Shown here: positions 3,771 through 59,814 of the stretch, piece by piece
Layout of the letters: each line of letters begins with the position of its first letter
Position numbering within the stretch: the first letter of the stretch is position 1
Virus record (IMG/VR): IMGVR_UViG_3300027857_000001
Coordinates: 62,001 to 126,000 of that record
DNA from: a virus
DNA: 64,000 bases
Strand: one strand, 5' to 3'
The notes under the pieces: generated by a model
The model's database searches: none
Told to the model about the DNA's origin: nothing
Seen by the model: the letters and a program-made list of their open reading frames with translations, nothing else
Position numbers and translations under genes: made by a program

Positions 3771-4930
3771 CACGCAGCCTCCTGTTCGCGCTGCGCCTTG
3801 ACCGGCAGTTCCTCGCCCTTGAGGGACAGCCCGTGGTCGGCGAGCATCTGCCGGATGGCGCCGAGCAGCTTGCCGCCGATGCCCTTGACCTTCAGGCAGT
3901 CCCCGGCGTCCATCGCCGCGAGCTGCTCCAGGTCCTCGATCCCGGCCTTGACCAGCGGGGACAGTGCCCGGCCGTAGCCCTCGCCGTCGAGGTCCGCGAT
4001 GCGCGGCTGCTGGATGGTGCCGTCGGCGCGCAGCGGGTAGCAGACCTTGCCGGGCTTGGCGTTCTCGGCCTTGCGGCCCTGGAAGATCTCCACGTCGCGG
4101 CGGAACCTGTTCCACGCTTTCGCGTCGTCGGCTCCGGAGATGAGGTGGAACCGGTAGCCGCGCGGGTGCTCGGGCCGCAGGTGCAGCACCGCCCCGGCGT
4201 CGGTGGCGGGCATCGGGACGAGGTCCCCGAAGCCGGCCGGGTCGGCCTCAGACGCGTGCCGGTAGGCGGCGATCTGCTCCCGCCATGTCTTGTCGGGATT
4301 CTTGCCGGTCTTCACGTCGCCGCAGACGGTCACGCCGGGGCCGGGGATGAACCGGCCGGCCGGGCCAATGGCCAGCCCTGGCAGGAACACGATCTTGTCC
4401 AGCGTCCCGGCGACGCCGAGCGGGTAGTTGAACACCGTCATCTCGGCGGCAAGGAAGTGTGGCCCGTAGTCGGCTACCCAGTTCAGGAAGCCCTCGATCA
4501 TCCAGTCCGCGACGACCTCGACCGGGTCTTCGTCGTACTCCTGGCCGGCGAGGTGGCCCGGCAGTTCCGGCAGCACGAGGTCAGACCCGTGCCCTTCCGG
4601 GGACGCCTGCCACAAGACCAGCGCCTCGACCACGTGATGCACGTACGAGCCGACGTCGCGCTTGAGATCGCGGACCTTCTCGGCCCGGCCCTTGGCGAGG
4701 TCGACGGCTGCCTGCCGCCCGCTGGCCCTGGCGGCCACGGACATCGCCCGGCCGCTCAGCACTGCCTCCAGCAGGCCGAGATTGTCCACGGCGCACTCGG
4801 CGGCGAGCCGGGCCGCCCAGGGCACCAGGTACCGCTGCTTGCCGTCCGTTGCGTCCAGGATGGTCGTGACGCGAGTCAGGTTCTCGCCTGTCGGCGGGTA
4901 GATGTACGTGTCAGATTCATTGCGGCTCAC
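3770..4930 (-). CDS. PD-(D/E)XK exonuclease (RecB/Cas4-type)
   Basis: 386 residues from GTG 4930 (GTGA overlap upstream). A PD-(D/E)XK nuclease core is visible: AGTLDK with Asp178, GDVKTGK with Asp205 and Lys207, then a helix with the conserved Gln (EQIAAYRHA). The C-terminal 60 residues (LEQLAAMDAGDCLKVKGIGG) resemble a helix-hairpin-helix DNA-binding segment. Phage relatives degrade DNA ends in recombination or host takeover. It sits directly upstream of the directionality factor and in the same operon as DnaQ-like and HNH nucleases, which suggests a DNA recombination cassette. Confidence 0.7.
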   Translation of the reverse strand: MSRNESDTYIYPPTGENLTRVTTILDATDGKQRYLVPWAARLAAECAVDNLGLLEAVLSGRAMSVAARASGRQAAVDLAKGRAEKVRDLKRDVGSYVHHVVEALVLWQASPEGHGSDLVLPELPGHLAGQEYDEDPVEVVADWMIEGFLNWVADYGPHFLAAEMTVFNYPLGVAGTLDKIVFLPGLAIGPAGRFIPGPGVTVCGDVKTGKNPDKTWREQIAAYRHASEADPAGFGDLVPMPATDAGAVLHLRPEHPRGYRFHLISGADDAKAWNRFRRDVEIFQGRKAENAKPGKVCYPLRADGTIQQPRIADLDGEGYGRALSPLVKAGIEDLEQLAAMDAGDCLKVKGIGGKLLGAIRQMLADHGLSLKGEELPVKAQREQEAA

Positions 4931-38631: not shown

Positions 38632-40296
38632 GTGGCCCGAAGGCGCAAGACGGGGATGCGGGGCGGTGACCTGGTGCCTGCTCCTCCTGGCATGACCCTG
38701 GCCGAGCAGGAACTGGCGGCGCTCGAGGAGCTCACGGCGCTGAAGGCGAAACTCGCATCGGTGAGGGGCCGGGGGATCGCCCGGTACGTGCACGACCCGC
38801 TCGGGTTCGTCCAGAACGCGGTCAGGTTCAGGCCCGGCGGCGGCCTCGCCGCCTACCAGGCCGAGATCATCGCGGACCTGCCCCGGATGAGGCGGATAGC
38901 GGTCAGGGGACCGCGGGGGCTGGGCAAGAGCTGCCTGGTCTCCCTGATCGTCCTGTGGTTCGCGCTGACCCGCGACGCGGCGGGGACCGACTGGAAGATC
39001 TGCACCACTGCCGGGTCGTGGGCTCAGCTTGAGAGCTACCTGTGGCCTGAGATCGCGAAGTGGGCGAACAGCATCGACTGGGCCGTGATCGGCCGGGAGC
39101 CGCTCAGCCCCCGCAGTGAGCTGATGAGAACCCAGATGCGCCTGCGGCACGGCCTGGCCCTCTCCGCCTCCCCGGAGCGGCCCGACGTGATCGAGGGGCT
39201 TCACGGTGACAGCGTCCTCGTCGTGATCGACGAGGCGAAGATCGTCTCGCCGGGCATCTTCGACTCGATCGAGGGCGCGTTCTCCGGCGCGGGTGACGGC
39301 AGCGACCTCGAGGCGTACGCGCTCGCGTTCTCGACGCCTGGCGAGCCGTCAGGCCGGTTCTACGACATCCACACCCGCAAGCCCGGCCTGGAGGACTGGC
39401 ATGTCCGGCATGTCACCCTCGGCGAGGCGGTAGCGGCGGGCCGGATGACCATGTCGTGGGCGCGGCAGCGGAAGAAGCTGTGGGGCGAGACCAGCGCCCT
39501 GTACCAGAACCATGTCCTCGGCGAGTTCTGCGCTGACGATGAGGACGCCGTCATCCCCCTCGCGTGGGTGGAGGCGGCGTTCGAGCGATGGCGGGAGTGG
39601 GACCGGGACGGCCGCCCGGACCAGGACGGCGTGAAAGCCGTCGGCGTCGACGTCGCCCGTTCCGGCACCGACCGGACCGTCGCCGCGGTCCGGCACGGCG
39701 ATGTGCTCACCGGGCTCGCCGACTGGGCGAAAGCAGACACGATGATCACGACGGGGCGGGTCAGGGGCATCCTGGAAGCAGACCCGGAAGCCACCGCGGT
39801 CGTCGACGTCATCGGCATCGGCGCTGGGGTCTACGACCGGCTCCGGGAGCAGGGCTGCCGCAGCGACCCGTTCAACGCGGGACGCAAGACCACGCGGCGT
39901 GACAAGACAGGCCAGTTCGGGTTCTGCAATGTGCGGGCCGCGGCCTGGTGGAACCTGAGGGAACTGCTCGAGCCGCCGGCGTCCCGGCTCGCGATCTTCC
40001 CCGACGACCAGCTCGCGGGGGACCTCACCGCGATGCACTACAAGCACACCAGCGACGGGAAGATCCAGGTCGAGTCCAAGGACGACATCCGCAGGCGCAT
40101 CGGCCGGTCCACCGACCGCGGCGACGCGGTCATGCAGGCGTTCTGGATGTCGGCCGGGTCGTGGGCCGACGCGTACGGCACCACCGGCTGCCCGGCCTGC
40201 GGCAGGTCGTTCATGAAGGAAGCAGACGGGAAGCTCCGGACGCACTGCCCGCACTGCCGGAAGCCGCTAGACGAGCCCGAGAGTGAGGTCGCATGA
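38632..40296 (+). CDS. terL: terminase large subunit with C-terminal zinc ribbon
   Basis: 554 residues from GTG 38632 (ATG 38656 or 38692 are alternatives). ATPase: Walker A GPRGLGKS (93-100), Walker B VVIDEA (Asp200, Glu201). Nuclease: VGVDVARSGTD with Asp340, VVDVIGIGAG, and DRGDAVMQ near 500. It pumps phage DNA into proheads and cuts it. The last 40 residues carry CPACGRSF and CPHCRKP, an extra zinc ribbon. A 25-codon leader ORF (38618-38695) with a strong ribosome site ends in ATGA on ATG 38692, so translation could also start there. Confidence 0.9.
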   Translation: MARRRKTGMRGGDLVPAPPGMTLAEQELAALEELTALKAKLASVRGRGIARYVHDPLGFVQNAVRFRPGGGLAAYQAEIIADLPRMRRIAVRGPRGLGKSCLVSLIVLWFALTRDAAGTDWKICTTAGSWAQLESYLWPEIAKWANSIDWAVIGREPLSPRSELMRTQMRLRHGLALSASPERPDVIEGLHGDSVLVVIDEAKIVSPGIFDSIEGAFSGAGDGSDLEAYALAFSTPGEPSGRFYDIHTRKPGLEDWHVRHVTLGEAVAAGRMTMSWARQRKKLWGETSALYQNHVLGEFCADDEDAVIPLAWVEAAFERWREWDRDGRPDQDGVKAVGVDVARSGTDRTVAAVRHGDVLTGLADWAKADTMITTGRVRGILEADPEATAVVDVIGIGAGVYDRLREQGCRSDPFNAGRKTTRRDKTGQFGFCNVRAAAWWNLRELLEPPASRLAIFPDDQLAGDLTAMHYKHTSDGKIQVESKDDIRRRIGRSTDRGDAVMQAFWMSAGSWADAYGTTGCPACGRSFMKEADGKLRTHCPHCRKPLDEPESEVA

Positions 40297-42924: not shown

Positions 42925-43080
42925 CCCCACGGATAAATCCGGGGGCTTGCGGGTCACGCTGCCGGGCTGGCTGCCGCGGAGAGTGCCGCGTCCGGCCGCA
43001 TGACTGCGGCCCAGCCAGCGATGTTCCTGGCTGCGAAGATGTCCGCTGGCCCAGCGAGGCCGCAGCTCGTGCAGCGGAAC
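42922..43080 (-). ncRNA. probable omega (reRNA) region at the tnpB 3' end
   Basis: In this family the guide RNA spans the end of tnpB and the right-end hairpin. Here the hairpin at 42925-42945 lies 9 nt beyond the stop. The boundaries given are only approximate and follow from the family, not from a fold prediction. The guide would begin in flanking DNA below 42925. Confidence 0.4.
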
Positions 43081-44054
43081 GTGGCCTGATCGGGCCGGTT
43101 CCGCTTGTCGATGTGGCCGCACCCGGGGCACCTGCGGGAGGTGTTCCGGGGATCCACCAGTACCACCGGGACGCCTGCGAGGGCGGCCTTGTAGGCGATG
43201 AACGCCCGGAGCTGGAAGAACGACCACGAGAGCCGGTCTGCGCGCTGAGCCTTCCGTACCGTTGTCCGGCTGTTGATCCCGCTCAGGTCTTCGAGCTTGA
43301 TCCCGCGTCCGGTGTCTTTGGCTTCGCTGACCAGGGTCTTGCTGATGCAGTGGTTGACGTCCCGGGCGAACCGGGCTTCCTTGCGGCGCCGCCTGGCGAG
43401 GAGCCGTTTCGCGGACTTGGTTCCCTTCGACTGGAGCCGGGCCCGGAACTGCCGGTTGCGGTAGCGGACCGCGCGGACGGCCTTACCGCAGTGGATGTTC
43501 CCGTCGGCGTCGGCGGCGATGTTGACGATACCGAGATCCACGCCCAGCCACCCGGCGGGCTCCGGGCCCGCGGGCGGCTCGGGGACATCGATCACGACGG
43601 CGAGATAGAACTTGCCGTCCCGCCAGATCAGGTCCGCCGCGCCCCGCAGCACTGTTCCGGTGGTGCCCAGCCACCGGCCCTGCCAGACCACCGGGACGAT
43701 GATCCGGCCGGCCAGGGTCAGGATCGACACCCGGTCGCGGCCCTTCCACGACAGGATCCGCTGGTCGAACGCGACAGCGCCCAGCTCGCGGAACACGGGC
43801 TTGATGGTCTTGTCCCGCTTGTACGCCTCGCACGCCTTGCTTATCGCCCGGACGGCCATCTGCGAGGACAGGCCGAACTCCGCGCGCAGGTCCGCGTAGA
43901 CGAGCGGCTGGAGGCGGATCTTGTTCGCAGTCTTGTGCTCGAACGCGACTTCAGCGGCGCGGCTGGCGGCGGCGTTGCAGGCCTGCATCGTCGCCAGCAG
44001 GGCCTCCGCCTGCTCGGGCGGAGGTGCGAGCTTCAGCATCTCCGTAACCAGCAC
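42954..44054 (-). CDS. tnpB: TnpB RNA-guided nuclease
   Basis: 366 residues from GTG 44054. The RuvC-like catalytic triad is complete: GVDLGIVN (Asp173), KLEDLSG (Glu255) and GPADIFAARN (Asp338). The zinc finger CPGCGHIDKRN...CTSCG is intact. TnpB is guided by an omega RNA made from the element's 3' end to cut target DNA next to a short motif, which favours retention of the element. The large N-terminal frame extension is a shadow and is excluded. Probably active. Confidence 0.9.
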   Translation of the reverse strand: MLVTEMLKLAPPPEQAEALLATMQACNAAASRAAEVAFEHKTANKIRLQPLVYADLRAEFGLSSQMAVRAISKACEAYKRDKTIKPVFRELGAVAFDQRILSWKGRDRVSILTLAGRIIVPVVWQGRWLGTTGTVLRGAADLIWRDGKFYLAVVIDVPEPPAGPEPAGWLGVDLGIVNIAADADGNIHCGKAVRAVRYRNRQFRARLQSKGTKSAKRLLARRRRKEARFARDVNHCISKTLVSEAKDTGRGIKLEDLSGINSRTTVRKAQRADRLSWSFFQLRAFIAYKAALAGVPVVLVDPRNTSRRCPGCGHIDKRNRPDQATFRCTSCGLAGPADIFAARNIAGWAAVMRPDAALSAAASPAA

Positions 44055-44208
44055 ACCATAGATACTAGGCTTCAATGCGGAAGGGTGCGAGGCGGCACGC
44101 CGCACAGGACACTCCCATTCCTCCCCAGGGCTGAAGCCGGGGGCTTCCTGGGAGCTTTTCGGTGAGAACCGGCATGCCAGCGAACCTGCGGACGGCTGGG
44201 GGTTCCGC

Positions 44209-44586
44209 GTGAGCCCCCCGTCTCCGGAAGAGGAGGACGCCGCACTGACCGGCACCGCGCCCGGCGGCACGCCTGCCACGGACCTGGACCGCGCCATGCT
44301 GCGGCTCCGCCTGGTCGCCGAGGCGAAGAGCCGTGGTGTCAGCTGGGCGGCGATCGGGCTTGCCCTGGGGTGCGACGGGAAGGCCGCCAAGCGGTACGTC
44401 AAGCGGTTCGCCGCCCGCACACAGCACGACCTGCTGCTGCTGTCACCAGCCGTCGACGTGCCGCTCGACAGGGACGGGCAGCGTGATCAGCGCAGCGACC
44501 AAGCCCGGACACCTCCGCAGGGTGCCGTGCCCAGTCCGTCAGCGGCCCGCAAGCGCCAGCACCAGGTCAGGCGGAGAGGCCGGTGA
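44209..44586 (+). CDS. small HTH protein
   Basis: 125 residues from GTG 44209. HTH at about 40-68 (EAKSRGVSWAAIGLALGCDG) with a basic C-terminal tail. Its start overlaps the stop of an upstream frame that has lost its 5' part to the TnpB element. Could help terminase or regulate late genes. Confidence 0.6.
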   Translation: MSPPSPEEEDAALTGTAPGGTPATDLDRAMLRLRLVAEAKSRGVSWAAIGLALGCDGKAAKRYVKRFAARTQHDLLLLSPAVDVPLDRDGQRDQRSDQARTPPQGAVPSPSAARKRQHQVRRRGR

Positions 44587-45800: not shown

Positions 45801-48800
45801 ATGGCATCTCCTCAGGCCATCTTGCGTGCTGCCAAGGCTGTTCCCGGCGCCCGGCCGACACCGCCGCCCCAGGGTGCGAATATCGGCATCGGGCGGATCT
45901 CGCCGCTGGCGTGGGACCTGTCTGAGGATGCCGGATACGCCAGGGCCTATGCCCCTTTCATGCCCCGGCCTGCGAGAACCTTTACTTCCGGCGCCTTCGG
46001 GCCGTTCTCGCCTATCCTTCCTGTCCCTGTGGACGAGCCACCTCCGGGCGGCCAGCTTCCCGACCCGCGCCGCTTCGACTACCCCGTCGGCTGGAACCTC
46101 CCGACCATCCCCGGCCAGGACGGCTTCCGGATGGCCTCGTTCGCCGTGCTGGACACGGTCAGCCGCCTCTACTCCGTCGCGCGTACCTGCATCGAGCGGC
46201 GCAAGGCGGCCATTGTCGGCATGGACTGGGACATCGTCCCGACCCGGGAGGCATCCAAGGCGTATCAGGGTTCTCACTCGGCGATGCGCGACTTCGGGAA
46301 GCGCCGCGCTAAGGCTGTCGCGTTCTTCAACCAGCCAGACCGCGACTTCGACGACTTCGGCGGGTTCCTGTCTGCCCTGCTGGAACAGGTGTTCGTAAAC
46401 GACGCGATGTCGCTGCTGCTCAAGCCCGTGCGCGGCCGGGGCCTGCGCAAGGGCGTGCTCGGGTCAGACCTCGACTGCCTGGGGCTGGTTGACGGCAGCA
46501 CCATCAGACCGCTCCTGTCCCTGTCAGGCGGGCGGCCTCGTCCTCCCGCACCCGCCTGGCAGCAATTCCTGAAAGGCGTGCCCAGGTCCGATATCAGCGC
46601 GATGCTGAGCGGCCAGGACATCGAGGACGCCGGGCTGACAGCCTACGCGGGACCGGCGTTCCGCACCGACCAGATGATCTACCGTCCCGTCGTCCCGCGT
46701 GTGAACTCCCCTTACGGGTTCAGCATGGTCGAGATGGCGCTGCTGGTCATCATGACCGGGCTGCGCAAGCAGGCGTACCAGGCCCAGTACTACGACGAGG
46801 GAACGGTCCCGGCGGTTTACCTCAGTCCCGGTGACACCAGTATCACGCCGAGCCAGATCCGGGAGCTTCAAGACGCTCTCAATGGCTTCGCCGGGGACCC
46901 GGCCTGGCACCACAAGATCATCGTCACGCCGCCCGGGACCACCATCCACCCGATGCGGCCCTCGCAGCTCGCCGACCAGTTCGACGAGGTCATCATGAGC
47001 CAGGTCGCGATGGTCTTCGACGTGGACCCGATCTCGCTCGGCCTGGTCCCCAACGTGTCCTCGACCGTCTCCCCGTTCGCCGCAAGGGAGATGGCGCAGG
47101 CCAGCCGCACCGTTCACGAGCGCACCAGCACGAAGCCGCTGCTGAAGTACCTGTGCTCCATCTTCAACGCGATCCTGCACCGAGTCCTCGGCCAGGACGA
47201 CATGAAGTTCACGTTCGCCGGCATGGACGAGGCGGCGGACCAGGCGGCCGTCACGGACCTGCTGGTGAAGCAGGTCCAGAACGGCATCCGCAGTGTCGAC
47301 GAGGCGCGGGAGGAACTGGAGCTGACCCCGTGGGGACTGCCGGAGACCTCAGGGCCGGTCGTGTTCACGCAGGCCGGCGTCATGCCGTTCGAGTGGGTTC
47401 CGGGGATGGCCGTCGCCCAGGCCGAGGGCGCCTCGGGGCCGTACAGCGGCGAGACGGCACCATCGACGAAGCCGGGCGGTCCGCACGGGGATACCCGGCC
47501 GCTCGGGGTTCATCACCCGCCGTCGTCGCGGCCGTGGACAGGCTCCCGTGACCTGCAGCACATCAGGCCGGACAGGCCGCCGTCCCGTGCGCCGGTACCG
47601 TCCGGCGCGGGACGCACCGGGCACACGCCGGCGCACTCGGCCGCGGAAGGGCACACCGCGGTGTCAAGGCAGGACGGCAGGGCGAAGGCTGTCAGGTCTG
47701 AGCTTGAAGCGCTGAGCAGGCACCTGCGCAAGGGCCGCGCCGTCTCGACGTGGGAGCCCCGCCACCTGTCCGGGCAGGTGATGGCGGTCATCGCCGAGGA
47801 TCTCACCAAGGGGCTCGGTGCCGACGAGGTCATCAGGGGCGCCATGACCGTCGCGCTGCCGCGTGGCGAGTACGAGCGGTCGGACAAGCCGGAGGGCGCT
47901 GCGGTCCCGGGGCATGAGCGGCGGATCGCCGGGGCGTTCGAGGACGCGGCCGCGCACGCCGGGCGGCTCGTAGCGCAGGCGCGGTCAGGGGAGCTGGCTC
48001 TCCCGGTGCCGGAGCTTGCCGCGAAGATCCTGTCGGTGCTCCGCGCCAGCCTCGGGCCGGTGCTGCGCGGCGTGCACCGGGACGCATGGGCAGCCGGGAA
48101 AGACGAGGCCGCCTCGGCGCTCCGGATCACGTCGGCCGGTGATGAGCAGGAGCGGGAAGCGTGGATCGCCTCGCAAGGGCGTGACTGGCTGGAGGCCGTC
48201 TGCCGCACCGCCGGACCGGAGCTTACCCGGCTGCTCGCGGCCCCCGGCCCGGTCACTGAGGATGCTGTGGCCGCCGTGCTGGGTGCCGGGCAGCGGCCGG
48301 CCCTGATCGCGTGCACGGAGACGGCGAGGGCACGGAACGCCGCTGCGCTCAGTGTCATGCAGCACGCCGGGGTGCAGCGGAAGCGGTGGTTGCCGGACGG
48401 CGGCAGTGTGTGCGCCGCGTGCCGGGCGAACGCGGAGCAGGGAGCAATCCCGCTTGCCGCCCCGTTCAGCTCCGGGGACGTCGCGGGGCCAGCGCACCCT
48501 GGCTGCTCCTGCGGCGTGGCCGCAGGACCGCGGGACGCGGCGAAGCTCGCCAGGCGCGCCGCTGACCTGAACGGCGAGGTCTGGTGGCCGCAGGGCTCAT
48601 ACCCGTCCGGTCCGGCGGCGGGAGGCGGCGGCCGGATGGTCCCGGCGCATGACGCCGACGGCACCGAGTACCTCGTGCCCGGCGGGGTGCCGGGGATGAC
48701 CGCAGGCGGCGAGCCGCCGCGCCAGGACGGAGACGGTCCCGGCCCGGTGACGGAGGACGCACCCGGCACGGTCAGCGCCGGGCGCGGCGACGTGCACACG

Positions 48801-49565
48801 CTGGGCGGCGGGACGGCAGGTCTGTACCGGGACCTGAGCGACCGGACGCACGCAGGCAGCCCGGACAGCGCCGATGACGCGGCATGGCCAGGAACCCGCG
48901 GCATCCCGCCGGGGCGCGATGCGTCGTGGCCGCTGCAGGGCTACATGGGCGGCTACTGGCCGCAGGGCGGCCACGGGACAGGGCAGTCACCGGGAACCAG
49001 TGCAGGCAGCGCAGACCGGGGCAGGGCACCCGGAGCGCACGGCAAGGCCGCATCCGGGTACGACCTGAGCCGGCGATCCGGGATGATCTCCCTCGACCTC
49101 CCGGCGGGACTCGTCAGGCCAGTGCCCGGCGGAGTCAGTGATCATCACGTCACGATCTGCTACCTAGGCAACGACGTGACAGATGAGCAGTTCGCGCTGG
49201 CCTGCCTCCGCGCCTCCGCCGCTGCCGCGCTCATGCCGGGCCCGCTGTGCGGTGTCATCTCCGGCCGCGGGACCTTCGAGCCGTCCGCCAGCAGCGACGG
49301 GAAGGTACCGGTGTGGGCCGGGGTGATGCTGCCCGGCGCGGAGATCCTGCGGGAAGCACTCGCGGACCTGTCCGCCAGCGAGTTCAGCCGGTGGCTCCCG
49401 CACGTGACGCTGGCCTACCTGGACCCGGCGGACCCGCTGCCGGACCCGGTGACTCCTGTCCCGGTGACGTTCACGCACATCAGCGTGCACCGCGGTGGCG
49501 ACGTGGAACGGTTCGAGCTGGGCGTGCCGCTGACGCAGCGCGCCCTGGCCGGAGCCGCAGCATGA
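45801..49565 (+). CDS. portal-MuF-2H phosphoesterase fusion
   Basis: 1254 residues in one frame. Residues 1-560: phage portal (YSVARTCIERRKAAIVGMDW; SPYGFSMVEMALLVIMTGLR; QVAMVFDVDPISLGLVPN). A Pro/Gly linker follows. About 630-910: MuF-like head protein, with the typical end WLPDGGSVCAACRANAEQGA and HPGCSCGVA. After another disordered linker, about 1105-1250 is a 2H phosphoesterase with both motifs, HVT at 1116-1118 and HVT at 1201-1203. Portal-MuF fusions are known, but the added LigT/AKAP7-like domain is unusual. It would hydrolyse cyclic or 2'-5' phosphodiesters, for example RNA ends, ADP-ribose phosphates or defence signals. Very likely part of the virion. Confidence 0.8.
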   Translation: MASPQAILRAAKAVPGARPTPPPQGANIGIGRISPLAWDLSEDAGYARAYAPFMPRPARTFTSGAFGPFSPILPVPVDEPPPGGQLPDPRRFDYPVGWNLPTIPGQDGFRMASFAVLDTVSRLYSVARTCIERRKAAIVGMDWDIVPTREASKAYQGSHSAMRDFGKRRAKAVAFFNQPDRDFDDFGGFLSALLEQVFVNDAMSLLLKPVRGRGLRKGVLGSDLDCLGLVDGSTIRPLLSLSGGRPRPPAPAWQQFLKGVPRSDISAMLSGQDIEDAGLTAYAGPAFRTDQMIYRPVVPRVNSPYGFSMVEMALLVIMTGLRKQAYQAQYYDEGTVPAVYLSPGDTSITPSQIRELQDALNGFAGDPAWHHKIIVTPPGTTIHPMRPSQLADQFDEVIMSQVAMVFDVDPISLGLVPNVSSTVSPFAAREMAQASRTVHERTSTKPLLKYLCSIFNAILHRVLGQDDMKFTFAGMDEAADQAAVTDLLVKQVQNGIRSVDEAREELELTPWGLPETSGPVVFTQAGVMPFEWVPGMAVAQAEGASGPYSGETAPSTKPGGPHGDTRPLGVHHPPSSRPWTGSRDLQHIRPDRPPSRAPVPSGAGRTGHTPAHSAAEGHTAVSRQDGRAKAVRSELEALSRHLRKGRAVSTWEPRHLSGQVMAVIAEDLTKGLGADEVIRGAMTVALPRGEYERSDKPEGAAVPGHERRIAGAFEDAAAHAGRLVAQARSGELALPVPELAAKILSVLRASLGPVLRGVHRDAWAAGKDEAASALRITSAGDEQEREAWIASQGRDWLEAVCRTAGPELTRLLAAPGPVTEDAVAAVLGAGQRPALIACTETARARNAAALSVMQHAGVQRKRWLPDGGSVCAACRANAEQGAIPLAAPFSSGDVAGPAHPGCSCGVAAGPRDAAKLARRAADLNGEVWWPQGSYPSGPAAGGGGRMVPAHDADGTEYLVPGGVPGMTAGGEPPRQDGDGPGPVTEDAPGTVSAGRGDVHTLGGGTAGLYRDLSDRTHAGSPDSADDAAWPGTRGIPPGRDASWPLQGYMGGYWPQGGHGTGQSPGTSAGSADRGRAPGAHGKAASGYDLSRRSGMISLDLPAGLVRPVPGGVSDHHVTICYLGNDVTDEQFALACLRASAAAALMPGPLCGVISGRGTFEPSASSDGKVPVWAGVMLPGAEILREALADLSASEFSRWLPHVTLAYLDPADPLPDPVTPVPVTFTHISVHRGGDVERFELGVPLTQRALAGAAA

Positions 49566-56274: not shown

Positions 56275-59200
56275 ATGGCTGCAACCCTCGAGGCGGACCT
56301 GCTCAGCGCAGCGCCTCTCAAGAGCGCCGGCAATACGGCGCTCAACCCGGACGGCCTGACCCAGGCGCTGTACGGCGACGCCGCACAGCCGTTCCAGGGA
56401 CACACGGCCGCACGCCACTCCACGACCGGCGACGCCATCAAGTCCGCGATGCCCGACCTCGTCAAGGGCGCCGGCCTCGCCCGCAGGGGCGGCAACACCC
56501 CCCTGACCGATTCCCGCGACATCGCGCTCCGCGCCCACCAGGCAACCCTGGACCTGCGCGGCGAGGTGGCCCGCGGGTACAGCGCCCGCTCCGAGGTGGT
56601 GAAGTCCGGATTCAGTTCCGGCTTCCTCAACCAGTTCGGAGCGCTCCGTACAGCGCTGATGACCCCGTCCATCGGCGAGCAGATCGCGCAGGTGTTCGCC
56701 AACCTGCCGGGCGGAGCCGAGGCTCTGTCCAAGTCATTCACGGCCGGGAACCTTGGTCTCGGATCTATATTCGGTTTTGTGCCATTCGATCTCCTCGCGC
56801 CTTCCGTCTGAGGGCCGCCGCACCGCGAGGTGCGGATGACAACTCCGAGAATTGCTGGGAAGCCCGCGCCACCTGGCCAGGCCACAACGCGGGGCGAAAG
56901 CCCGGACGTGACGGCCTGAGAACTGGCCAGTCCCAGGGGTCATCAGCAGCCGAGCTTCTAAGGGCACCACGTGCCTACGAAGAAGGTTCACAGACCATGC
57001 ACGGAGCACCTCACTGAGGTGAAGATATGGTCGGGACCCGCAGCGAGAGCGCGGGAGCCAGGCGGAAACGATCTGGCCCGGCAGCAGGACCGGTAACAAG
57101 TCGTCACGGCTTATCTACCCTGTGTACACCCTCGGCGATTAGGGGGCCCTGCGGAGCGATCCGCAGGTTAACACCGCACTGCCCGGGGAACCCCTCCAGA
57201 GCGACTGGGGAATCCCGGTCCGCCACGATGCCCGTGGCGGCGTAGAGACTGTACGTGCGGGCTCTGCGATCAGCGTGCCCACGGGGCATCACCTGCGCAC
57301 GCCAGCAGAGCATGAGACAGTCCGAGCCTGCAGGAAGGCAAACTGCAGGAGGCGCGCGGAAACGACGCGCCCGCCCGCTCAGCCGAGCGGGACGTAACAA
57401 GCCAACTGCTACCGCAACAAGTTCCCGCGCCCGGCTGGCCAGGGCGCCAGCCGCATCGAGCGGCTCGTCCTGGGGATCTCCGGTTCCCAGACCGGTGGCC
57501 AGGGCGTCCTGGACATCTCCCTCCCGGAACTGGTGCAGTCCGGCGGCACGTTCTCCAACTGGCCGCTTAACCTGCCCCCAGCCGGGTCACAGGCATCGAC
57601 CACGCTCAATGTCCCTTACCGCTTCCTTGGCGTGACCGAGGAGCTGTCCTGGCTCGCGCAGTTCGCCGGGCAGGGCTATGAGGACATAAGCGCCCTAAAC
57701 TTACCTGGGGCCCAGCATGGCGACATGCTGGTGAGAACCCTGCTGTATCGGTGAAAGCCCTTCGTCTAGATGCGATATCCTCGTATCTATGGGTAACGCC
57801 GAGGCAACCCGGCCCGCAGCCGGAGAGTCCGTAGAGGCCATACGCAGGGGATCTGACGAGCCGGAACATTCTCATGCGGACTGCGGCACTGCCCGCCAGC
57901 CGGCGAGCACCAAGGTCATCAACACGCCGCATGAGGTCATGTTCCATCAGGCACTAACCCGCGCCCGCCTCAGCTTCGAGACACAGTCTCACCCAGCTGG
58001 CGACAGGTACGAAGCGGATATCGAGCTACTGCAGAAGCCGATCGTCATCGAGGTGACGAACAGTCCCGGCGAGAAACGAGCGGCCGGCCGGCGCGAGCGC
58101 AAGACGGCCGCACTGGAAGCCGCAGGTTACCGGGTCTACTGGTTCAGCAACCATCAGGCGCGCACCAACCCCGATGCCGCAGTGCAGCGGGTAATGCGGG
58201 AAAACGGCCTCCGCCAGGAGGAAGCGCCTACCGTCCTGATCCGGCCGAACCGGACCGGTCATGCTGGCCAGCTCAACCCGAACTGGGGCGGCGGCCCAGC
58301 GGCAGCAGTGTGCGAGCAATGCGGTTCGCTGGTCGCATCCAGGCGCCGCAATGGCGGCAGGATCGCCCGCTTCTGCAACTCGAAGTGCTACGGGAAGTGG
58401 ATGCACGAGCATCCGGAGACAGTCAACAACAAGCGCCCTATGCCCCCGATGCCCGATCTTGCGGATCGGTACGGCGCGGGAATGTCCGCGCAGCAGGTGG
58501 CTGACTCCTACGGCGTGAGCCGTGCCTACATCATGCAGGAGATGCGCAGACGCGGCATTCCCCTGCGGCCAGCGGGCGGTTACCGTCCTCGTGGCGGCTT
58601 CCGGGCCACAGGCACCCTTCCCGGCTCGCAAAATGTCAGATCGTGACATGGTCCGACCCGCGACCGATGACAAAGGCGCGGAGCTAGGCGGAACAGAAAC
58701 GGCCTAGCCATCCTGTCCGGAATCGCTCCGACCGGACAAGATGTAACAAAAGTGGGCAAACCTCATCATGCTCCAGGAGCAGATGCTCGGCGAGGAATAC
58801 CAGCTCATCTGCGGCTCGTCCGCGAACCTCGCCGCGCCCGCCGCGCCTACGGTGACAGCACGGACGGCGGGCTCCAACGAGACCGCGATCGGGTCGAACG
58901 CCAACTACGCGGTCGTGGTGACCGCGACGAACTGGTTCGGCGAGACCGTGGCATCCTCCGCCGCGACCGTGTCTGGCGGCACTGGCGCCTCCCAGGTCGT
59001 GGACGTCACCATCGCCCCCTCGGTGGGTGCGATGAACTACAACATCTACGTCTCCACCAACGGCACCCCGGCCCGGACGAACGAGTACCTCGTCGCATCC
59101 CAGGTCGGGGGGATCAGGTACACCATCCAGGGCGCGGCGCCGACGTCCGGCACCAACCCGCCGGCCGCTGACACCGGGACCGGGAAGAACACCCGGATCG

Positions 59201-59814
59201 AGGGCGTCATCCCGACGCTCACCGGCCTGTCCGCGTCGGGCGGCGTGTACCCGACGTCGCCGGTCAACTGGCAGGGCGGCTACGTCAACCAGGCGGTCGG
59301 CACCCACCTGTCTTACAACGCCATCTACACGGCGCTGAAGAACCTGTGGCAGACCACCTCGAACAACCCTGGCGCGTTCAAGGCCGACCCGGCCGAGCTG
59401 ATCTCGTCCGGAATCGACATCGCCAACCTGTCCCAGGACGTCATCAGCCAGGGTCAGGGAACCAACTACGAGCTGTTCATCCAGCAGTCCCAGGTCGGTG
59501 ACGTCACCGTCGGGGCTGCGGTGAGCCAGTTCCAGAACCCGCTCACCAGGAGCATCCTCAAGCTCGTCGTCCACCCCTGGTACACCCAGGGCAACGCCGA
59601 GCTGCTCTCCTACCAGCTCCCCCAGACGTGGACCAATGTGGCGAACGCCTGGGAAATGACGATGGTCCAGGACTACGTGAGTATTGCGTGGCCAGTCATT
59701 GACGCTACGTATCGCTACAGTTTGTTCGAATTCGGGGCTCTAGTTGCGTCTGCGCCTTTCTACAGCGCGCATCTCGGCGGCCTGCAGAACTCGGATAGCT
59801 CGCCGTTCTCCTGA
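56275..59814 (+). CDS. major capsid protein gene interrupted by three group I introns
   Basis: Four exons are predicted: 56275-56802, 57104-57132, 57409-57696, 58755-59814. They join to exactly 635 codons (634 residues). The junctions read ...LLAP/SRLIYPVYT/L/YRNKFPRPAG... and ...EDISAL/ANLIMLQEQM..., the expected order for actinophage HK97-fold capsid proteins. Each exon before an intron ends in T and each intron ends in G. The product builds the head; residues of exon 4 about 290-390 look like an inserted Ig-like domain. The start has GGAAGGGAGG upstream. Without splicing only a 178-residue fragment would form. Confidence 0.8.
56803..57103 (+). ncRNA. group I intron 1 (ORF-less, 301 nt)
   Basis: Signs of a group I core: a P-element AATTGCTGGGAA (56850-56861), and a P7 pair GACCAT (56993-56998) with ATGGTC (57027-57032), the latter preceded by AAGAT as in the S element. 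The upstream exon ends GCCT and can pair with GGGC just inside the intron (P1, with a U-G pair at the splice site). Ends GTAACAAGTCG. Confidence 0.75.
57133..57408 (+). ncRNA. group I intron 2 (ORF-less, 276 nt)
   Basis: P7 pair GACTGT (57247-57252) with ACAGTC (57317-57322). The exon end ACCCT pairs with AGGGGG at the intron start (P1). Ends GTAACAAGCCAACTG, with the same GTAACAAG as intron 1. Flanked on the left by the 29-nt exon 2. Confidence 0.75.
57697..58754 (+). ncRNA. group I intron 3 with homing endonuclease ORF (1058 nt)
   Basis: The exon end GCCCT can pair with GGGGC a few bases into the intron. An S-like element GACATGGTCCGACC (58645-58658) follows the ORF; its P7 partner was not found by eye. 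Ends GTAACAAAAGTG, again sharing GTAACAA with introns 1 and 2. Confidence 0.7.
57789..58646 (+). CDS. intron-encoded Vsr-like homing endonuclease
   Basis: 285 residues inside intron 3. A PD-(D/E)XK domain of the Vsr/EDxHD kind at about 55-125 (TPHEVMFHQALTRARLSFET; DRYEADIELLQKPIVIEV; AALEAAGYRVYWFSNHQ), a zinc finger (CEQCGSL...FCNSKCYGKW) and a C-terminal HTH (YGAGMSAQQVADSYGVSRAY) for DNA binding. It would cut intron-less capsid genes to spread the intron. The start may be a later Met. Confidence 0.75.
   Translation: MGNAEATRPAAGESVEAIRRGSDEPEHSHADCGTARQPASTKVINTPHEVMFHQALTRARLSFETQSHPAGDRYEADIELLQKPIVIEVTNSPGEKRAAGRRERKTAALEAAGYRVYWFSNHQARTNPDAAVQRVMRENGLRQEEAPTVLIRPNRTGHAGQLNPNWGGGPAAAVCEQCGSLVASRRRNGGRIARFCNSKCYGKWMHEHPETVNNKRPMPPMPDLADRYGAGMSAQQVADSYGVSRAYIMQEMRRRGIPLRPAGGYRPRGGFRATGTLPGSQNVRS

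Follow-up and report, generated by a model that had tools for sequence, protein, structure and literature searches.

In an uncultured soil bacteriophage, three group I introns have very probably invaded the putative major capsid gene at three conserved positions, and they are predicted to be spliced out. The gene lies in the window, the whole stretch of 64,000 nucleotides analysed here, which is part of a 135,301-base virus record (G000:C1:62001-126000). The inserts are exact, the joints between the exons are conserved, and the inserts have group I cores and shared ends. An earlier note on this DNA had proposed three group I introns in one major capsid gene, and our analysis supports this as the best reading of the region; the capsid identity of the gene itself is likely.

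Results

Excision of three inserts restores a conserved open frame

The exons, introns and neighbouring genes are listed in Table 1. Excision of the three introns left 635 codons (stop included) with no internal stop, encoding a 634-residue protein. The coordinates of the earlier note were exact, and the frame that it had described was open. The unspliced gene was read to a stop after 178 codons, and products retaining intron 1, 2 or 3 are predicted to stop after 178, 188 or 300 residues, respectively. Exon 2, joined to exons 1 and 3, provides residues 177-186, in which the codons for SRLIYPVYT are complete and codon 186 is split; skipping of this exon is predicted to shift the frame and lead to a stop after 229 residues. 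Because retention and skipping both give early stops, the full-length protein needs all three introns out and the 29-nt exon in.

Table 1. Positions of the exons, introns and neighbouring genes within the window.
Feature	Position	Strand	Evidence or remark
Portal protein gene, upstream	45801..49565	+	Pfam PF04860, E 3.6e-14
Gene directly upstream, 947 aa	53372..56215	+	without family match
Exon 1 of probable major capsid gene	56275..56802	+	176 codons; last base T
Intron 1, 301 nt, ORF-less group I (type A)	56803..57103	+	Rfam RF00028 match
Exon 2, micro-exon, 29 nt	57104..57132	+	matches intact relatives; same exon in L130
Intron 2, 276 nt, ORF-less group I (type B)	57133..57408	+	model R1 match
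Exon 3, 288 nt	57409..57696	+	open joined frame, intact relatives, spliced alignment
Intron 3, 1058 nt, group I (type C, B-like core plus ORF)	57697..58754	+	R1 (modest match) and direct helix reading
Intron-3 ORF, 285 aa, DUF559 (PD-(D/E)XK/Vsr-like) nuclease	57789..58646	+	Pfam PF04480, E 1.8e-5
Exon 4, 1060 nt with stop codon	58755..59814	+	joined frame, intact relatives, spliced alignment

The joints were compared with the first 40 related loci taken from IMG/VR by protein search. The gene was uninterrupted in 28 of the 40, and the alignment was gap-free through all three window joints. The residues across the joints in the alignment of these intact relatives are ...FDLLAPSRLIYPVYTVFRNK... 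and ...EDISALANLILLQ.... The conserved capsid order claimed for each joint was therefore borne out by relatives whose intact genes lack the inserts as coding sequence. The spliced-alignment script demanded U before the intron and G at its end and rewarded GTAACA; these rules gain no independent support from its catalogue, and independent evidence for the U/G boundary comes from scoring of the joints by the protein profile alone. With the U/G rule off, this boundary was among the best-scoring choices at 16 of 16 simple joints, including the three window joints. A seventeenth stretch that was scored lies in locus L038 and consists of two introns flanking a 28-nt exon. When the profile was made without the window sequence, spliced alignment returned the same three window introns. 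In addition, these three codon positions are occupied by introns in the independent contig L130, which also has the 29-nt exon and a fourth intron. DNA similarity to the region was sought in named phages and none was found.

The gene is the probable major capsid gene, as judged from gene order and weak fold matches. It matched PHROG 13692, a family of unknown function, and had no Pfam match; no named capsid family was matched by sequence. AlphaFold gave a weak model with 66 sequences (pLDDT 57) and an unusable one with 12. The best matches of the weak model in a viral library included two named major capsid proteins (E 5e-5 and 2.6e-4). Fold matches include the capsid of phage SU10, and the inserted Ig-like part also draws tail proteins. 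Upstream are the portal gene and, directly before exon 1, a gene whose product looks like a prohead protease or scaffold by reading only. The head module also holds a gene for a TnpB/Cas12f-like transposon protein (42954-44417, minus strand; PF07282, PF01385), located between the portal gene and a 554-aa gene (38632-40296, plus strand) that reads like a large terminase and has only a weak, zinc-ribbon-like Pfam match.

The inserts have group I ends, guides and cores

As the earlier note had claimed, the upstream exon ends in T and the intron in G in 3/3 cases, the pattern of group I introns. P1 pairings of 4, 4 and 5 bp, with the U-G wobble, were likewise found for introns 1, 2 and 3. Across the 46 catalogued introns described below, mean P1 was 4.33 bp, compared to 3.56 (sd 0.17) with random T-ended exon ends, and was above all 500 random sets. 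By one fixed rule, P10 (the guide with the 3' exon) was 3, 0 and 2 bp, short or absent in introns 2 and 3. The GTAACAA reported near all three 3' ends is at 57093-57099, 57394-57400 and 58743-58749. The common terminus is GTAACA, 4-9 nt and a last G, and the 3' module of the wider set of phage introns described below consists of a CAGAAAUGAC hairpin followed by this terminus.

In intron 1, the IGS lies near 56812 and P7 is formed by 56993-56998/57027-57032. The core of intron 2 spans 57170-57324. In intron 3, the 5' half of the core is at 57734-57857, P8 at 57850-57857/58635-58642 and P7 at 57834-57841/58648-58654; P7, P3 and P8 could be read directly, with P8 and P7 closing around the ORF. 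Thus, the P7 strands match in introns 1 and 2, as had been noticed, and also in intron 3. No ORF of more than 80 aa was found on the plus strand of introns 1 and 2, so no homing nuclease is encoded there.

Rfam at gathering thresholds gave no match in the whole window. With a relaxed threshold, intron 1 matched the full length of Intron_gpI (42.8 bits, E 4.7e-9; gathering score 50) and introns 2 and 3 gave no match; the RF00028 gathering cut-off was reached by none of the three. Splicing of the introns in the capsid gene of LittleE and the tail gene of BAKA, two mycobacteriophages, has been shown by RT-PCR (Pope et al. 2013, PMC3706429). Since these proven introns also miss the RF00028 cut-off (30.7 and 28.6 bits, respectively), it is not decisive here.

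A covariance model, R1, was built from 13 aligned relatives of intron 2, with the window sequence excluded. When no structure was supplied, RNAalifold folded these relatives into P3, P4, P5, P6 and P8, with two-sided changes in 25 of 40 pairs. When P7 was added as a pseudoknot, 95.2% of cells were paired and double changes occurred in 28 of 47 pairs, P7 included. Covariation was 0.475 against 0.152 (sd 0.015) in shuffled alignments, with 0/500 shuffles reaching it, and at most 0.09 with the strands slid; relatedness is kept by the slide control and not by the shuffle control, and the structure was derived from the same sequences. R1 matched intron 2 with 139.6 bits (E 1.4e-34) and intron 3 with 24.4 bits (E 8e-5), the next match in the 64 kb scoring 9.7 bits. 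In the whole 135-kb record, R1 found nothing beyond introns 2 and 3, and RF00028 found intron 1 only. The covariance-model search that had been proposed as a check thus matched all three introns, intron 1 by Intron_gpI and introns 2 and 3 by R1, and a P3-P8 core with the P3/P7 pseudoknot is found in each. The R1 score of intron 3 is modest, and its core is split by a long ORF.

Intron 3 carries a probable nuclease ORF

The intron-3 ORF begins within P5 and has its stop codon between P8 and P7, overlapping the ribozyme core, and has an HTH-like stretch at its C-terminus. Compared with the ORF at the same site in L130, its dN/dS was 0.23, indicating purifying selection. Most relatives have EADGxxH at the usual place, where the window and L130 have EVTNSPG; the intron-3 nuclease may be inactive or use another arrangement. 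Type A introns of some relatives contain LAGLIDADG nucleases on the opposite strand. Homing nucleases opposite to the capsid gene strand were observed in the site-294/255 introns of L029, L034 and L026, assigned to LAGLIDADG by Pfam in L029 and L034 and by motif only in L026.

The same gene is repeatedly interrupted in related phages

The catalogue of this capsid gene, covering the IMG/VR relatives and the window, contains 46 introns at 24 sites after two loci judged duplicates were dropped; it includes near-duplicate contigs (L026-L028, L029-L031), and the counts are of sequences, not independent events. Five introns were found in L118 and L141, four in L034, L130 and L140, and three in the window, L038 and L123. 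The internal exons include ones of 16, 27, 28, 29, 29, 32, 37, 38, 42, 45, 50 and 54 nt. Conservation at the sites was 0.875, compared to 0.765 (sd 0.029) at random positions, and 0/10,000 draws were as high. Siting in conserved stretches fits homing at conserved codons, and splicing constraints could give the same. Different introns can occupy one site: at position 176, the window and L141 have an intron of type A, and L015 and L130 have one of a nuclease-bearing type.

A further type-B core (128.5 bits) was observed at L118:7314-7590, in the last capsid codons. It was left out of the five introns of L118, the C-terminus being plausible either spliced or unspliced there. L123, a fragment in an Actinomycetes metagenome bin, is probably a phage contig; its copy of the gene has three short introns, of 224-273 nt. 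When R1 was run on 299 genomes of a single bacterial class, it matched only the bin of L123, so the type-B lineage is uncommon in that class.

Related introns in virion genes of other phages

A scan with the type-B core matched 22 contigs, mostly in this same capsid gene. The other matches were in major head proteins of other families (L124, phrog_1357; L128, PF05065) and in the unidentified L129 and L144; this head-gene bias is partly expected because the scan was built from capsid introns. A second type-B pattern matched 7 contigs. In L125 (about 4000-4700, reverse complement), a major-head-protein gene, assigned by similarity to L124 (phrog_1357), has two type-B introns around a 44-nt exon.

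A broader scan used the 3' module GCAGAAATGACNNGC...GTAACA, an exact pattern that introns 1 and 2 of the window, carrying the GGAAAC variant, do not match. At least 120 stretches matched. Downstream exons were examined in L153-L229, and 58 readable ones were kept. Among the matches listed, these exons fell into 22 PHROG families, and those of named function were all virion proteins (18/18: head, tail, tail tube, portal and tape measure); some exons had no match, and the counts are per family, not per exon. Pfam on the same exons, among the matches listed, agreed except for one weak sugar-binding match. Many phages thus have introns with the CAGAAAUGAC...GUAACA module in genes for head, tail, portal and tape-measure proteins.

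T4-type (IA2) phage introns resemble those of the window in their group I fold, homing nucleases and conserved coding targets, but in a comparison scan with their P7 motif (51 contigs) the neighbouring exons were mainly NrdD, ThyA, DNA polymerase and NrdB; the 25 families listed also included two tail families and one terminase. The contrast in gene preference is clear, but it is a lead, not a census, the exon-picking rules having differed somewhat and one pattern having been used per side.

Discussion

The proven mycobacteriophage introns are among the closest known counterparts: R1 scored 51.1 bits against the LittleE intron and 65.5 bits against that of BAKA, and both share U before the intron and G at its end with the window. 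For BAKA, the exact splice product had been deduced in that study from the LittleE case (PMC3706429). The BAKA intron has the same CAGAAAUGAC...GUAACA module and ends in CAGAAATGACC...GTAACAAACCG, with G at the 3' splice site, the end form seen in the window introns. However, LittleE and BAKA have one intron per gene, the capsid families differ, and the LittleE intron contains a bottom-strand endonuclease gene.

The earlier note had called three introns in one capsid gene, with a 29-nt exon, exceptional. The three introns and the micro-exon are real, but they are not unique. According to the summary in PMC11878797 of Landthaler & Shub 1999, the tail tube gene orf142 of Staphylococcus phage Twort has three group I introns and shows exon skipping; by this description alone it is like the capsid gene in being a structural gene with three group I introns, although a different gene. 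Bastillevirinae have up to three group I introns per gene, with a small exon between two introns and exon skipping, and three introns occur in single polymerase and terminase genes (PMC11878797). Their interrupted genes are DNA polymerase, terminase, thymidylate synthase and ribonucleotide reductase genes, not capsid genes. In relatives, this same gene has four or five introns and shorter exons.

One rival reading is that the capsid gene is a pseudogene, decayed or mis-assembled, whose insertions are junk and are not spliced. It would agree with the metagenomic origin of the record, with evidence drawn from sequence alone and with the early stop of the unspliced reading. This is very unlikely, since exact excision leaves the whole frame open and brings conserved residues together at every joint, the independent contig L130 is interrupted at the same three sites, the inserts contain covarying helices, and dN/dS of the capsid protein (MCP) between the window and L130 is 0.39. 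Another splicing element, such as a group II intron, an intein or a bypassed sequence, can practically be dismissed. Nothing favours it beyond the absent Rfam match for two of the three inserts, whereas in-frame stop codons in all inserts exclude inteins, no Rfam group II match was obtained, and the group I core has its P3/P7 pseudoknot.

It is conceivable, though we consider it rather doubtful, that the group I introns are only partly functional, either needing a maturase or other protein, or with exon 2 often skipped so that splicing regulates capsid output. Exon skipping is described for Twort orf142 and phage SIOphi in the account of PMC11878797, which also reports that four of eight spliced Bastillevirinae genes were spliced only in infected cells, and the 29-nt exon is a plausible candidate for skipping. 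On the other hand, the sequence has no sign of a dedicated factor or of regulation, and many relatives are intron-free, so no regulated step would be essential to this phage group.

Under the preferred reading of three group I introns that are removed, each intron RNA would fold into a P3-P8 core with the P3/P7 pseudoknot, and its internal guide would pair with the last bases of the upstream exon. Two transesterifications would then remove the intron and join the U-ending exon to the next, restoring the 634-residue capsid protein through the micro-exon. We infer that this happens in the cell, and the introns may be self-splicing without protein. The introns would have spread between phages by DUF559 or LAGLIDADG homing nucleases recognising conserved capsid codons, and the intron-3 nuclease may have served in such homing. 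Spread by homing nucleases is our proposed cause of the many sites, and of the different introns at some sites, among relatives.

In reviews and a survey of 2025, phage group I introns are described as inhabiting DNA polymerase, ribonucleotide reductase and terminase genes, and the reason is asked (PMC3984707, PMC11878797). We think it reasonably likely that many phages share a set of group I introns that in part escape Rfam, have one 3' module in common and are specialised for the structural genes of the virion. In this capsid family, such introns would have entered up to five positions per gene one after another and left exons of as little as 16 nt. The protein that phages make in the largest amount is here a repeated intron target, and the introns with the 3' module show the opposite gene preference. 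The choice of target, whether by nuclease recognition, expression timing or splicing context, becomes directly testable, and five-intron genes with 16- to 50-nt exons test the splice-site accuracy of group I ribozymes. In practice, standard annotation breaks up such capsid genes, and they are missed as phage markers.
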